The translations under genes were made by a program, and so were the position numbers. The notes beneath the pieces are model-generated. The model ran no database searches. It was given only the letters and a program-made list of their open reading frames with translations, and was not told the origin of the DNA. Below, piece by piece: positions 21,246-28,281 of a DNA stretch of 64,000 bases. Each line of letters starts with the position of its first letter. Position 1 is the first letter of the stretch. The DNA lies in contig JAIXWF010000019.1 in assembly GCA_027482185.1 (NCBI GenBank), forward strand, positions 186,001 to 250,000, given 5' to 3'. This stretch comes from Opitutaceae bacterium (GTDB taxonomy: Bacteria > Verrucomicrobiota > Verrucomicrobiia > Opitutales > Opitutaceae).

Positions 21246-23441
21246 TTAGGTGCGCGCCGGCGCCTTGGAGGAGGTTTCGACGATCTTCGCGAGGAGCGAA
21301 TTGGGGACTTGTTCGAAGTGCGACGGCGTGATGCCGGCACTGGCGCGGCCCTTGGAGAGCGAGCGGATGTCGGTGACGTAGCCGAAGAGCATTTCGAGCG
21401 GGACGAACGCGTTGATGATGCACGCGCCGGCCTTGTTCTCCATGCCCTGGATCTGGCCGCGGCGACGGTTGATGTCGCCCATGAGATCGCCCTGGTACTC
21501 TTCCGGGGTGGTGACCTCGACGCCCATGATCGGCTCGAGCAGGATCGGGTTCGCCTTCTTCATCGCTTCCTTGAAGCCGAAGATGCCGGCCATCTTGAAC
21601 GCGAGCTCGGAGGAGTCGACCTCGTGGAAGGAACCGTCGATGATGCGGACCTTGACGTCGACGACCGGGTAGCCGGCGACAACGCCGTTGTTGCAGCCTT
21701 CCATGATGCCATCAGTCGCCGGCTTGATGAATTCCTTCGGAATCGCACCGCCGACGATCTCGTTGATGACCTCGATGCCCTTGCCCTTTTCATTGGGCTC
21801 GAGCTTGACCACCACGTGACCGTACTGGCCCTTGCCGCCGGACTGGCGGATGAATTTGCCTTCGGCCTCGGCCGGTTTGGTGACGGTTTCGCGATAGGCG
21901 ATCTGCGGCTTGCCGGCCGTCGCCTCGACCTTGAACTCGCGCTTCATGCGATCGCGGATGATGTCGAGGTGGAGCTCGCCCATGCCGGCGAGGATCGTCT
22001 GGCCGGTGTCTTGGTCGGTCTTGACGCGGAGCGTCGGATCCTCGGCCACAAGGCGCTGGAGCGCCGTGGACATCTTTTCCTGGTCGCCCTTGGAATTCGG
22101 CTCGATGGACATCGAGATGACGGGTTCCGGGAAGGACGGCGGCTCAAGGCGGATATCGAAATCCTCGTCGCACAGCGTGTCGCCCGTGATCACGTCCTTG
22201 ACGCCGACGACCGCACAGATGTCGCCGGAGTAGGCGAGTTCGATTTCCTCGCGCTCAATCGCGCGCATCAGCACGAGACGCGAAATGCGCTCGGAGCGGC
22301 GGGTACGGGGATTGTAAACCGACATACCCTTCGGGAGCTTGCCGGTGTAGACGCGGAAGAAAACAAGTCGGCCGACGAAGGGATCGTTCCAAAGCTTGAA
22401 GGCCAAGCCGGCCATCTTCGCCTTGTCGTCGACGACTGCGGCCACTTCCTTGCCGTCGCTGTCCTGGCCGATCATCGGCGGAACATCGATCGGGTTCGGG
22501 AGGTAGTTGACAACGCAGTCGAGCAGGCGCTGGACACCCTTCTTCTTGAACGCGGAGCCGGGGACGACGCCCGTGAACTTGAGGGAAATCGTGGCCTTCC
22601 GGACGGCGAGCATCAGTTCATCGACCGTGATTTCTTCGCCGCCGAGATACTTTTCGGCGATGACGTCGTCGAAGTCCGAAACCGCCTCGATCAACTTGTC
22701 GCGGTACTCCTTGGCCTGGTCGGCCATTTCCGCCGGGATCGGCATGGTCTGCGGATTCAGTCCCAGCTGGTCGTTCGGGTCGGTGTCGAAGCTGTAAGCG
22801 ACATTCTGCACCAGATCGATGAGCCCGGTGAAGTTTTCCTCTTTGCCGATCGGCAGGAAAATCGGGTGCGCGTTGGCCTTGAGCTTCTCGCGCATTTCGG
22901 AGACGGCGCGGAAGAAGTCGGCGCCGGTACGGTCCATCTTGTTGATGAACGCGATGCGCGGAACTTTGTACTTGTTGGCTTGGCGCCAGACCGTCTCGGA
23001 CTGGGGCTGCACGCCGGCGACGGCGCAGAAGACGGCGACGGCGCCGTCCAGCACGCGCAGGGAGCGCTCGACTTCGGCGGTGAAGTCGACGTGACCGGGA
23101 GTATCAATAATGTTGATGCGCTGCTTGATGCCCTTCCAGGGGCCCCAGGAAGCGTTCCAAGCGCAGGAAATGGCGGCCGCGGTGATGGTGATGCCGCGCT
23201 CGCGTTCCTGCTCCATCCAGTCGGTCACGGTCGTACCCTCGTGGACTTCGCCCATCTTGTGGACGGCGCCGGAGTAGAAGAGAATGCGCTCGGTCGTCGT
23301 GGTCTTGCCGGCATCGATGTGCGCGGCGATGCCGATATTGCGCGTCCATTCCAACGGGAAAGGACGATCCTTGGCATTCACCGGCGAGATCTTCGCCTTG
23401 TCGGTGACAACCGTGATGTTGATGGGAGCGGCAGCGGACAT
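21246..23441 (-). CDS. fusA: Translation elongation factor G
   Basis: A 731-residue GTPase that drives tRNA-mRNA translocation. G1 is [16 protein letters not shown]3 DTPGHVDFT and G4 NKMDRTGAD; domain IV contains [12 protein letters not shown]. The N-terminus has about 24 residues before the usual [10 protein letters not shown] start. The segment between [10 protein letters not shown] and INIIDTPGH has a few extra residues ([14 protein letters not shown]). Both features explain the length above the usual 690-700. It lies between rpsG and rpsJ. Confidence 0.98.
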
Positions 23442-23460
23442 GAGCAGGAGGCGGATCGGG

Positions 23461-23934
23461 TTACCAGCGCAGGTGGGCGAAGGCGCGATTGGCCTGGGCC
23501 ATCTTGTGGGTGTCTTCCTTCTTCTTCACGACGGACCCGGTGTTGTTGTATGCGTCGATGATCTCGGCGGCGAGGGCGTCCTTCATGCGCATGCCTTTGC
23601 GGCCGGCGGCGGCGTCAACGATCCAGCGCAGCGCAAGCGACTCCTGGCGCTCGAACGAAATTTCCACGGGCACTTGGTAGGTGGCGCCGCCGACGCGGCG
23701 GCTCTTCACCTCGAGGCGCGGACGCGCGTTCTCGAGTGCACCGAGCATGAGATCGACCGGATCACCCTTTTCGAGCTTCTCGGAGACCTTCTCGAAGGCG
23801 CCGTAAACAATGCGCTGGGCAATGTTCTTCTTGCCGCTCTTCATGATGACATTGACGAGGTGCGCAACCAACGGGCTGTTGTAGCGGGCGTCCGGGACGG
23901 TCTGGCGTTTCTCAGCTCTGTGACGACGTGACAT
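23461..23934 (-). CDS. rpsG: 30S ribosomal protein S7 (uS7)
   Basis: A 157-residue protein starting [23 protein letters not shown] with the S7 motif [19 protein letters not shown]. It organises the 16S 3' domain. Canonical position between rpsL and fusA. Confidence 0.98.
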
Positions 23935-23961
23935 GGCGAAATCGGATTGGAAAACGTTGGC

Positions 23962-24342
23962 TTACTTGGCGGCCTTCGGGCGCTTGACGCCGTACTTGGA
24001 GCGGGAACGGCGGCGCTTTTCGACGCCGGTGGCATCGAGGGTGCCGCGGACAATGTGGTAACGGACGCCGGGCAAGTCCTTCACGCGGCCGCCGCGGACG
24101 AGCACGATCGAGTGCTCCTGCAGGTTGTGGCCTTCGTCCGGGATGTAGGAGATGACTTCGTTGCCGTTCGTGAGGCGAACCTTCGCGACCTTACGGATGG
24201 CGGAGTTCGGCTTCTTGGGGGTGCGGGTCATGACCTGCACGCACACGCCGCGGCGGAACGGGTTGCCGTCCAAAGCCGGGGATTTCGACTTGGCGGTCAC
24301 CTTGCGGCGGCCTTTGCGCACGAGTTGGTTGATGGTCGGCAT
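23962..24342 (-). CDS. rpsL: 30S ribosomal protein S12 (uS12)
   Basis: A 126-residue protein starting [20 protein letters not shown]. Decoding-centre loops [19 protein letters not shown] and [17 protein letters not shown] are intact; Lys in PKKPNS (streptomycin site) is wild type. It is the first gene of the ribosomal cluster, so the promoter should lie directly upstream. Confidence 0.98.
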
Positions 24343-24770: not shown

Positions 24771-26069
24771 TCAGAGCGCGATTCGGATACCCTTGCGCAG
24801 GTAGGTCGGAACATCGAGATCCTGGCCGTCGAAGAGGTTGCGATCGGTCTTCTCAAAGTGCCCGCGCGTTTCGACCTCACCGAAACCAAATTCCTCCTGT
24901 GCACTCGGGATCGTCGAAGATTTGCCATCACTCCCGGCGCGAGCAGCAACGGCAGCTTCGGCTGTCTTGCGCACCCCGGCCGATTCCACCGGGGCGGCAG
25001 CGGCGGGCTCCTGCGGCGAAACCGCGGCGCCAACAGGAACGCGGCCCCGGGCGGGGCTGGCGGCGGGGCGCCGGGCGGGTACGCCGCGACCGCCGATGTC
25101 GCTGGTGCCGACGACGCAGACCTCGACCTTGCCGGCCAAGTCTTCGTCGATGACCGCGCCCATGATGATGTGGGAATCGCGGCCGAACTGGTCCGTGATC
25201 GCCGTCATCAGTTCGTTAACCTTCGGCAACGTGAGATCGGCGCCGCCGATGATGTTCACGAGCAAGCGATCCGCCCGCCGGGCAAACTCAGGGGTATGCA
25301 AAAGCGGGCACAACTTGAGGCTGGCCACGGCATCGCCGACGGCATTCTCCCCTTCCCCGGATCCCAGCCCGAAGAGGGTCTTGCCGCCGCGCTGGTGGAA
25401 GGCTTGGCGCAGAGTCGCGAAGTCGAGGTTGATGAGGCCGGTCTTGAACAGCATCGACCAGATCGACTTCACGCCGCGCCCGATCCACTCGTCGGCGCGG
25501 GAAAACGAATCCAGAACGCTCTCGTTCTCGGCCCCGGCCTGCAAGAGGACGTCGTTGGGCAGCGGGATGACGGCGTCGCAGGACTGACGCAGGGCGCGGA
25601 GCCCTTCCTCGGCCTGTTTGAGCCGGCGTCCGCCTTCGAAGGAAAACGGCATCGTCACAAATGCGATCACGAGCGCGCCGGTCTCCGCCGCGATCTCGGC
25701 CACAACAGGCGAGGCGCCGCTGCCGGTGCCGCCGCCCATACCGGTGACGAGGAAAACCAAGTCGCAGTCCTTCACCACGCCGGCGATCTTTTCGCGGTCG
25801 GCTTCGGCCGCCTCACGGCCGAGGTCGGGATCGCCGCCGGCGCCAAGACCGCGCGTGACCCCCATGCCGATCAAGACTTTGTCCTGCACGGGAGAACTCG
25901 AGAGCGCCTGGTAGTCGGTGTTGATGACCGCCAGTTGGAGCCGCTCGAGATTTTCCATCTTGAGGCGATCGACGGCGTTGGAGCCGGCGCCGCCGACACC
26001 GACGAGTTTGATCGCGATATTGCGGTCGGTGAGCAGACCGTGTTCGAGGGGAAGTTCGTTGAGATTCAT
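24771..26069 (-). CDS. ftsZ: Cell division protein FtsZ
   Basis: A 432-residue tubulin-like GTPase that builds the Z-ring. GTP-binding signature GGGTGSG is at 112-118. A flexible Ala/Pro-rich linker (about 335-405) precedes a C-terminal peptide LDVPTYLRKG that fits the FtsA-binding tail. The T7 synergy loop, NxDxxD in nearly all FtsZ, reads N214-L-D216-F-A-T219, so the second Asp is Thr (codon ACT at 25413-25415). In E. coli this Asp (D212) is needed for GTP hydrolysis. It is the last gene of the dcw cluster, 12 bases after ftsA. Confidence 0.97.
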   Translation of the reverse strand: MNLNELPLEHGLLTDRNIAIKLVGVGGAGSNAVDRLKMENLERLQLAVINTDYQALSSSPVQDKVLIGMGVTRGLGAGGDPDLGREAAEADREKIAGVVKDCDLVFLVTGMGGGTGSGASPVVAEIAAETGALVIAFVTMPFSFEGGRRLKQAEEGLRALRQSCDAVIPLPNDVLLQAGAENESVLDSFSRADEWIGRGVKSIWSMLFKTGLINLDFATLRQAFHQRGGKTLFGLGSGEGENAVGDAVASLKLCPLLHTPEFARRADRLLVNIIGGADLTLPKVNELMTAITDQFGRDSHIIMGAVIDEDLAGKVEVCVVGTSDIGGRGVPARRPAASPARGRVPVGAAVSPQEPAAAAPVESAGVRKTAEAAVAARAGSDGKSSTIPSAQEEFGFGEVETRGHFEKTDRNLFDGQDLDVPTYLRKGIRIAL

Positions 26070-26081
26070 GCGGGGCCGGGC

Positions 26082-27296
26082 TCAGGAGTTGGCGAACAGG
26101 CGTTTCACACCGCTGAAGAAACCCGAACCGCGGCGGCCCGGGCCGGCTTTCTCCGCCTGCGCGCTGACGCCGTAATAGAGGAGGCCGAGCCCGGTGTGGT
26201 AACCCGGGTCGCGCATGTTTTCGTTCACCCAGGAAGGGGCTTCGCCAAGGTGCGCGGGAACGCCGAAGACTTTGGCCGCCGCTTCGGCAAGGCCCGGCAA
26301 CTTCGCGGTCCCACCCGTGAGCACGACGCCGGCGGCGCAGGTTTCGGGGGAGAAGGCGTTGCCGAGTTTCTTCTTCACCACTTCGAGCAGTTCCCACGTA
26401 CGGGCAGAAGTGATCTGTTCGATCGCCTGCTGGGAAAACTGGCGATCGCCGATCGCAAAGTTTCCGTCGAGCCAGACCTTTTGCGCCTTGTCCTTCGTGA
26501 GGACGCTGGCGCGACCGAACCGGAGCTTGAGCTTTTCCGCCTGCCCTTCGGTGAGCCGGAGACCGATGCTAAGGTCGTTGGTGAGATGGGTGCCTCCGAC
26601 CGGCACAACGCCGGTGGTGTGCGGGGCGCCATCGCGGTACAGCACGAAGTCGGTCGTGCCGGCCCCGAGGTCGATCGCGAGCACGCCATGCTGGCGCTCT
26701 TCGGCGCTCGTGACCATGTGGCCGGAGGCGAGACTGGAGAGGACGAGTTCGCGCACCTCGAGGTTGAAGCCGCGGATGACGTGGATGTTGTCGGCGAGCC
26801 GCTGCTCCTGACCGTGAACGGTCCAGTAGCCGACGTCGAGCCGCTGGCCGACGAGATTCTCGGGGCTGCCCGGCACGAGCCGGCCGTCGACCCGGAAGGG
26901 CCGCCGGATGTGATGGACGACGACGCGGCCCGCGGGCAGTTGCTTGGCCTTGGCAAGGTCGCAGACGGTCTGCACATCGCCCGGCTCGATCATGTTGTCC
27001 GAGGCCTTCACGTTCACCGCGGCTTCGTTGTAGAAACCCTCGAGGTGGCCGCCGGTCTGGGCGAGGAACACGGTGTCGATGCGTTCGCCGGCGTCGCGTT
27101 CGGCCTGCTGCAGCGCCGTGTGCGTGGATTCGCTCGCGGCCTTGTAGTCGACGACGGTGCCCTTGATGACGCCGCGGGAGCTGCATTCGCCGCGGCCGAT
27201 GATCGCCAGCTCGCGGCCGGTGTACTCGCCGACGAGGACGCTGATTTTCGAGGTGCCGATTTCGACGGCGCCGATGAAGGTGGTGCGGGAGCTCAC
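26082..27296 (-). CDS. ftsA: Cell division protein FtsA
   Basis: A 404-residue actin-fold protein that tethers FtsZ to the membrane. The phosphate loops FIGAVEIGTSKISVLVGE and LAIDLGAGTTDFVLYRDG and the late GVVLTGGTAKLPGL motif are present. The C-terminus RGSGFFSGVKRLFANS is an amphipathic membrane-targeting helix. The GTG start at 27296 lies one base from the ftsQ stop and gives a normal N-terminus; the longer open frame to 27368 overlaps ftsQ. Confidence 0.95.
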   Translation of the reverse strand: MSSRTTFIGAVEIGTSKISVLVGEYTGRELAIIGRGECSSRGVIKGTVVDYKAASESTHTALQQAERDAGERIDTVFLAQTGGHLEGFYNEAAVNVKASDNMIEPGDVQTVCDLAKAKQLPAGRVVVHHIRRPFRVDGRLVPGSPENLVGQRLDVGYWTVHGQEQRLADNIHVIRGFNLEVRELVLSSLASGHMVTSAEERQHGVLAIDLGAGTTDFVLYRDGAPHTTGVVPVGGTHLTNDLSIGLRLTEGQAEKLKLRFGRASVLTKDKAQKVWLDGNFAIGDRQFSQQAIEQITSARTWELLEVVKKKLGNAFSPETCAAGVVLTGGTAKLPGLAEAAAKVFGVPAHLGEAPSWVNENMRDPGYHTGLGLLYYGVSAQAEKAGPGRRGSGFFSGVKRLFANS

Positions 27297-27297
27297 G

Positions 27298-28281
27298 TTA
27301 GTGCTTCGGCTGGGAGAAGGGAGAGACGTTGAAACCGGGGGAAAGCGGCGGCAGCGCGGTCCGCACATCGGTCACGGGCGCGAGCGGCGTAATCGCGACC
27401 GGCACCTCGCGGCCGAGCGTGAAGTCGATGCGCACGCGGGACGGCGGCAGGTTCGCGGCCAGGTAGTCGCGCATGTAATCGAGTTTGGCCAGCTGCGGGA
27501 AAAAATCGGTCCGCGCGGAAAACACCACGGTGGAGCCGTTCCGCGTCGTCACTTCGATCTCGCGGTCGGACTCGAGGCGGGCGAGCGAGACCACGGACCA
27601 GTCGGCGTAAAGGTGGCCGGCCTCGTATTGCGCACGCGCCAGCAGGTCGGAAACGGCGTCCATGCCGCGGACCGGACGGAAGCCCGCGCCGTCGCGCACC
27701 AGCGCGAAGCCGTCCAGCCAGGGCAGCGATTCGACCAGCGCCGGGTCGTAACTTGTTCCCGGATACACCACGCCGTCCCGCGCGACGAGCAGGACGCGTT
27801 CGGCGCCGCCCGGGGCGGCGGCCCGGATGCGGGCGACCGGGGAACGCTCGGAAATCTGCACGACAAGTCGGTCGGGGAAATGGCGCGTGAGGTTGGCGGC
27901 CTGCACCTGGCGGTCGGCGAGCAGGCGTTCGCGCAGGCGGTCGAGGTCGAGTTCCATCAGGGCGGCCCCCGACGGCAGCGCGAGGGTCCGGCGCAGCCAG
28001 GCCGAGTCCAGCACGCCGCCGGCAGCGGTGCGCAGCTCGAAGTGTTTCACGGGCACGGCCTTCGCGGCGGCGGGCATCGCCCCGGAGTTCTCGCGCAGGG
28101 CGGCCGCGACCCGCCACGCACCCCAGAGCGCGGTGCCGCCGAGGGCGACGGCGCTGCCCGTGCGGAGCAGCGCCATGGCCAGGCGCCAACGGCCGCCGCG
28201 CGACATGGCGCGCGGCTTCACCGGCTGCGGGATGTCGCGCCAGGTGCGGGAGGCGGAAGCGTTGGCGGAAGGGGAATTCAA
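27298..28281 (-). CDS. ftsQ: Cell division protein FtsQ
   Basis: About 327 residues from a TTG at 28281, chosen because it overlaps the ddl stop as TTGA, the same coupling seen for neighbouring genes; an ATG 78 bases downstream is the alternative. After a basic cytoplasmic tail there is one membrane helix (about LLRTGSAVALGGTALWGAW), then a POTRA domain (FELRTAAGGVLDSAWLRR, ERLLADRQVQAANLTRHFPDRLVVQISERSPVA) and the FtsQ beta domain. It links early and late divisome proteins. Confidence 0.88.
   Translation of the reverse strand: MNSPSANASASRTWRDIPQPVKPRAMSRGGRWRLAMALLRTGSAVALGGTALWGAWRVAAALRENSGAMPAAAKAVPVKHFELRTAAGGVLDSAWLRRTLALPSGAALMELDLDRLRERLLADRQVQAANLTRHFPDRLVVQISERSPVARIRAAAPGGAERVLLVARDGVVYPGTSYDPALVESLPWLDGFALVRDGAGFRPVRGMDAVSDLLARAQYEAGHLYADWSVVSLARLESDREIEVTTRNGSTVVFSARTDFFPQLAKLDYMRDYLAANLPPSRVRIDFTLGREVPVAITPLAPVTDVRTALPPLSPGFNVSPFSQPKH

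Follow-up and report, generated by a model that had tools for sequence, protein, structure and literature searches.

The FtsZ protein encoded in the window (the whole stretch of 64,000 nucleotides of Opitutaceae bacterium DNA that was analyzed) has no acid at the place of the second aspartate of the T7 loop, and this absence is fixed among the FtsZ sequences examined from its family and order, Opitutales. The hydrolysis network is otherwise conserved, and no second FtsZ was found in the assembly, which is 98% complete. We consider, with moderate confidence, that this is an ordinary division FtsZ, which would have worked with one T7 acid since the ancestor of the order and would possess a slow but real GTPase activity.

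The ftsZ Gene, Its Product, and Its Neighbors

The ftsZ gene (P0001; 24771..26069, minus strand) encodes a protein of 432 aa. In a profile search, this protein reached 319.3 bits with the TIGR00065 equivalog model, whose cut-off is 295.2 bits, and both the GTPase domain (PF00091) and the C-terminal domain (PF12327) scored over their cut-offs. The fold agrees with this assignment: among the 50 VIA-align matches listed, solved FtsZ structures matched the predicted model with Z values of 33–35 and rmsd of 2.3–3.7. The mean pLDDT of the model is moderate (65), being better in the core and low in residues 1–16 and 327–432.

The T4 glycine loop GMGGGTGSG (residues 110–118; 25716..25742, minus strand) is intact and contains the GTP-binding signature GGGTG[ST]G in the form GGGTGSG. 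The conserved C-terminal peptide DLDVPTYLRKG (residues 417–427; 24789..24821, minus strand), in which DVPTYLRK is aligned beside DIPAFLRK of E. coli, is present as well. The preliminary description of this DNA had named these two elements in calling the rest of the protein normal. The ftsA gene (26082..27368, minus strand; TIGR01174 equivalog, 279 bits; PF14450) is located directly upstream of ftsZ, as is characteristic of a division cluster. On the other side, ftsZ is followed by the same-strand genes encoding S12, S7, and EF-G (21246–24342), which brings the division cluster up against a str-type ribosomal cluster.

Sequences Compared

The FtsZ rows examined comprise 74 from the family, 14 from the order, 47 from the class outside the order, and 37 from the phylum outside the class. 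The family rows come from 74 of the 96 matching genomes of the family, the genome under study included; 30 of them are the best matches of the search, whose loops were visible at selection, and two more were added. Every genome of the order that gave a match (14) is represented, whereas the class and the further phylum are represented by 47 of 115 and 37 of 125 such genomes. The remaining rows were hand-picked for spread over families with the loops unseen at selection, and the family with the code f13, which gave very weak matches, was left out. The 84 "core" rows are the 88 family and order rows minus four very divergent order rows (L086–L089).

Outside the phylum, 18 FtsZ served as controls: that of E. 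coli and 17 that chanced to lie in plasmid and viral collections. Of these 17, 13 are plasmid records from Pseudomonadota, Bacillota, and Actinomycetota, taken from 117 with a match, and four are IMG/VR pieces of unknown host. In the Rossellomorea plasmid record CP128836.1 (L267), an ftsZ that encodes both T7 aspartates is carried on the plasmid next to a PemK/MazF toxin gene.

The Second T7 Acid Is Absent

The minus strand of 25398–25430 is translated as NLDFATLRQAF (residues 214–224). The T7 loop (25413..25430, minus strand) reads N214-L-D216-F-A-T219 in place of the canonical two-acid NxDxxD. The loss of the second Asp, reported in the preliminary description, was confirmed both by translation and by a MAFFT alignment of 173 FtsZ, in which N207, D209, and D212 of E. 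coli share columns with N214, D216, and T219 and the loop is free of gaps between the two proteins. Thus, T219 (codon ACT; 25413..25415, minus strand) occupies the position of E. coli D212, and D216 (25422..25424, minus strand), corresponding to D209, is the remaining T7 acid. The latter is found in all 88 family and order rows.

The alignment of many Opitutaceae FtsZ, which had been proposed as a check, revealed neither D nor E in the D212 column in any of the 88 rows; this column contains T (55), A (14), S (11), Q (7), or G (1). The acid is likewise absent from 80 loci on named genome contigs (70 T and 10 A), which are the best 80 of 178 relatives. Their titles include Opitutaceae, Opitutus, and Opitutae, and in part just Verrucomicrobia bacterium, and their species may overlap with the genomes behind the 88 rows. 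The order is taken to be Opitutales on the strength of these titles. Since the state is common to independent genomes, T219 is neither a chance substitution nor a base error. The sequencing error at 25413–25415 that the preliminary description had allowed for is ruled out by these two sets, and a mis-aligned loop is ruled out by their agreement and by the lack of gaps. Nor has the acid slid a few residues along the loop: D or E anywhere in columns 210–222 occurs in 8 of the 84 core rows and not in the window FtsZ.

A tree of 172 FtsZ rows was built with the T7 columns removed; the partial row L123 was left out of it, although its residue 212 was counted. The 88 family and order rows lie on one side of a branch with an SH-aLRT of 99, and the core rows alone with 97. 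A single, long-past loss of the D212 acid, retained since then across the order examined, would therefore fit. Since many deep branches are poorly supported (40 of the 169 inner branches are starred) and several rows are long-branched, only the grouping of the order was used. The acid state at 212 changed at least 14 times over the tree rows, 13 of these changes being outside the group of the order.

T7 Acids in the Rest of the Phylum

The statement that nearly all FtsZ have NxDxxD holds for the controls, where D209 and D212 are both found in 18 of 18; however, it does not extend to the phylum, since both acids are present in only 29 of the 84 rows of other Verrucomicrobiota, with 18 more having only the 209 acid. 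In the class outside the order (47 rows), the 212 acid stands alone in 29 rows and the 209 acid alone in 4, both acids are present in 11, and both are missing in 3; N207 is kept in 16. The corresponding numbers for the phylum outside the class (37 rows) are 4, 14, 18, and 1. The loss of the D212 acid is thus not confined to the order, which is the one large group examined in which the loss is fixed; the opposite state prevails in the remainder of the class. A trade-off between the 209 and 212 acids was assessed on the tree, which offers just five independent pairs on supported branches (median p 1). L096, L100, L104, L105, L107, L125, and other class loci contain G, S, T, or H at D209, often without N207, and keep D or E at 212.

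The f13 genomes G106, G113, G121, G129, G146, G153, G158, G162, G167, and G172 (2.2–2.5 Mb, 96–99% complete) match the window FtsZ very weakly (E from 5e-10 to 3e-15), in the N-terminal part except for G153, and in frames of 376–462 aa. These can be explained either as extremely divergent FtsZ or as another family member. G186, also of f13, has no match. Altogether, an FtsZ match is absent from G324 (order), G186 (class), G056 and G080 (family), and G295, G357, and G359 (phylum), which are 87–99% complete; assembly gaps, extreme divergence, or loss may be the cause.

The Hydrolysis Network Is Otherwise Conserved

The network residues D45, Q47, G71, R142, N207, and D209 (E. coli numbering) are all present in the window FtsZ, and in the 88 rows they are found 85, 71, 88, 85, 83, and 88 times, respectively. 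R142, whose role is described in PMC8936486, is R149 of the window protein (25623..25625, minus strand) and is kept in all 84 core rows. E138 is present in 88 of 88 rows. Strictly invariant columns make up 25 of 305 in the core rows and include D209, R142, E138, N165, and G71; G105, G107, and T108 of the GTP-binding loop are also found in 84 of 84.

Among the charged residues, only D212 is invariant in the controls (18/18) and absent from the core rows (0/84). The other control-invariant residues that the core rows have lost or nearly lost, all of them uncharged, are replaced as follows: M29L, M97L, T110S (loop T4), T127V, I163L, L189I, A223T, A243L, A312G, and G314S/T. Several residues are specific to the order: at E. 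coli Y222, K is found in 97% and R in 2% of the core rows (K230 in the window FtsZ, 25380–25382), and W at V188 (W195), C at S246 (C254), and F at V130 (F137) are each found in 84 of 84. K230, W195, C254, and F137 were considered as compensators and set aside for want of structural evidence that they reach the active site.

According to the S. aureus filament structures (PMC8936486), D210 swings and places the attacking water, whereas D213 and G72 essentially stay put; R143 reaches D213 via a water, and G72 contacts the precatalytic water. With an offset of one, D210, D213, G72, and R143 of SaFtsZ were taken as D209, D212, G71, and R142 of E. coli. Judged from these structural roles and from residue conservation in the order, the T7 acid that was lost is the static one and the acid that was kept is the moving one.

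No Second FtsZ Was Found

Only one PF00091 match is present in the assembly under study, which is 98% complete; neither a second FtsZ, FtsZ-like, or tubulin gene nor a PF13809 match was found in it. A search with E. coli FtsZ as a query returned the window ftsZ and one stretch with E = 0.0185 in the 821-aa frame L273. When 100 family genomes were searched with the window protein, 96 gave a match and five a second one; in four cases the second match neighbors the first on its contig, and in the fifth it is a short piece at a contig end. Within the limits of an assembly that is 98% complete, the claim that this is the only ftsZ is borne out, the search for a second gene, which had been named as a way to overturn the reading, gave none, and a backup by a second FtsZ or a tubulin is rejected.

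How FtsZ Could Work with One T7 Acid

In the reading that we favor, GTP-bound subunits would join head to tail as usual. D216, the counterpart of the swinging D209, would still perform the chemistry together with R149, the T3 glycine, N214, and D52 near the Mg ion, while T219 (or A, S, Q, or G at the same place) would no longer help to hold the water. The Z ring would assemble normally, GTP hydrolysis and treadmilling would be slow, and the bacteria would tolerate this slowness. Rate, dynamics, and tolerance are here what we infer for the FtsZ of Opitutales. Abandonment of hydrolysis should have let D209 and R142 drift like position 212; instead, both are kept in all core rows. The E. coli D212A protein has 7% of the wild-type GTPase activity and the plant AtFtsZ1 D275A protein 15% (PMC8142252), and the E. 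coli value means that hydrolysis without D212 is possible but slow. However, conservation of the retained residues is no proof of hydrolysis, since they have a role in assembly as well. In addition, the loss of D212 is harmful in other species, yet a whole order lives with it, which points to real compensation rather than to mere tolerance and speaks against slow GTPase. The preliminary description had offered compensation by another residue or slow turnover, and these remain the right two alternatives.

Compensation is the most probable of the rival readings, although we regard it as tentative. An acid elsewhere would replace D212 and provide near-normal hydrolysis; the most plausible candidate is D80 (E. 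coli N73; 25830..25832, minus strand), which belongs to the T3 loop of the subunit that binds GTP. This candidate is two residues from the glycine touching the catalytic water, G71, the equivalent of which in SaFtsZ makes the contact mentioned above (PMC8936486). D or E at this position is found in 88 of 88 order members, in 44 of 47 class rows and 30 of 37 phylum rows (74 of 84 other Verrucomicrobiota), and in only 4 of 18 controls. The T3 acid may be ancestral to the phylum and permissive for the loss of D212, which it may predate and may have made harmless. On the other hand, no association between the T3 acid and T7-acid loss was found in the tree rows outside the order (E. coli included, L123 excluded): both T7 acids are kept in 26 of the 73 rows with the T3 acid and in 4 of the 11 without it. 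Moreover, M. tuberculosis FtsZ combines the T3 acid with both T7 acids, as do 4 of the 18 controls.

It is unlikely that hydrolysis was abandoned, i.e., that GTP is bound and assembly is kept with hardly any hydrolysis, and turnover or constriction is driven otherwise, for example, by peptidoglycan synthesis (compare beta-tubulin). Position 212 can be occupied by T, A, S, Q, or G, as expected for an unneeded acid; in tubulin, the equivalent K254 blocks hydrolysis (PMC13394414); and S. aureus constriction rates are similar when treadmilling is nearly stopped (PMC10994846). The strict conservation of D209 and R142 in the core rows makes this reading less likely, all the more as sister orders show that D209 can go. 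Furthermore, early ring condensation in B. subtilis needs FtsZ treadmilling (PMC8079713), and treadmilling is essential in the initial phase according to the S. aureus paper as well (PMC10994846). Finally, an artefact or backup (a base error at 25413–25415, a mis-aligned loop, or a second canonical FtsZ) is highly improbable, as only the missing 2% of the assembly speaks for it, and against it stand the uniform state of the 88 rows and of the best 80 of 178 loci, the gap-free loop, the single PF00091 match, and the five second matches in the 96 matched of 100 family genomes, all of them adjoining or contig-end pieces.

Returning to the one-acid GTPase, a broader and rather speculative extension can be proposed. 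The two-acid T7 mechanism would have been dismantled in Verrucomicrobiota in opposite ways: Opitutales would have lost D212 and kept D209, and most of the examined rest of the class would have lost D209, the supposed water-positioning residue, and kept D or E at 212. An ancestral T3 acid may have made either one dispensable, and cell division in the phylum would rely on a rewired FtsZ GTPase that has one acid and is probably slow. If this is true, FtsZ-based division does not in general depend on fast treadmilling driven by GTPase activity.

Literature and Significance

As far as the sources cited here go, the FtsZ studied to date require the second T7 Asp for hydrolysis or assembly, and this residue is a standard target for obtaining GTPase-poor FtsZ. 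SaFtsZ D213N does not assemble (PMC8936486), and expressed D213A slows treadmilling in B. subtilis (PMC8079713). E. coli D212G complemented an ftsZ null only together with a suppressor, which arose at about 1 in 10^6 (PMC5405962); older work cited in PMC4383033 has D212G functioning in division, and cells over-producing D212A with FtsA divide in the presence of native FtsZ (PMC4383033).

Verrucomicrobial FtsZ are described as being among the most divergent (PMC9871819; V. spinosum in PMC12283558). Literature searches turned up no report of a changed T7 Asp in Verrucomicrobiota or Opitutales, and older or subscription papers may contain one; a term search likewise met none inside PMC9871819, PMC5147048, PMC2875224, and 12 of 25 places in PMC12283558. 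The divergence of verrucomicrobial FtsZ is already known, the loss of the T7 acid is apparently undescribed in the sources consulted, and a prior notice in print is possible.

An order without D212 beside orders often without D209 forms a natural mutant series, which bears on the question of which acid does the chemistry and on how much GTPase activity and treadmilling division needs. Annotation or drug design that assumes NxDxxD would misjudge Verrucomicrobiota.

Comparison with Known Systems

With canonical FtsZ (TIGR00065; E. coli, B. subtilis, and S. aureus), the window FtsZ shares the fold, the GTP-binding loops, D209, R142, and N207, as well as the C-terminal peptide, the position of ftsA beside ftsZ, and the one copy found. 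It differs in that the order has no acid at the D212 position and has a T3 acid in all members examined.

The NxDxxE/K motif of the beta-tubulin T7 loop is, we assume, the equivalent of NxDxxT in the window FtsZ. K254 of beta-tubulin, the partner of the non-hydrolyzed GTP of alpha-tubulin, is likewise a non-acidic residue at the equivalent place (PMC13394414). However, tubulin has an alternating catalytic partner, whereas here, the only FtsZ found is the one without the acid, so every interface would lack it.

The FtsZ of Ca. Thiosymbion oneisti is also a natural protein with low GTPase activity, which was measured there and is expected here (PMC8953583). Its catalytic residues are described as conserved and its T7 loop as fairly conserved, unlike in Opitutales, where one T7 acid is absent.

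In the laboratory mutants (E. coli D212A and D212G, B. subtilis D213A, S. aureus D213N, and AtFtsZ1 D275A), the same residue was removed and the other T7 acid was left, as in the order. These, however, are single changes in an unadapted protein and, in the reports cited above, lead to low GTPase activity, no assembly, or division defects, whereas the change in Opitutales is natural and fixed.
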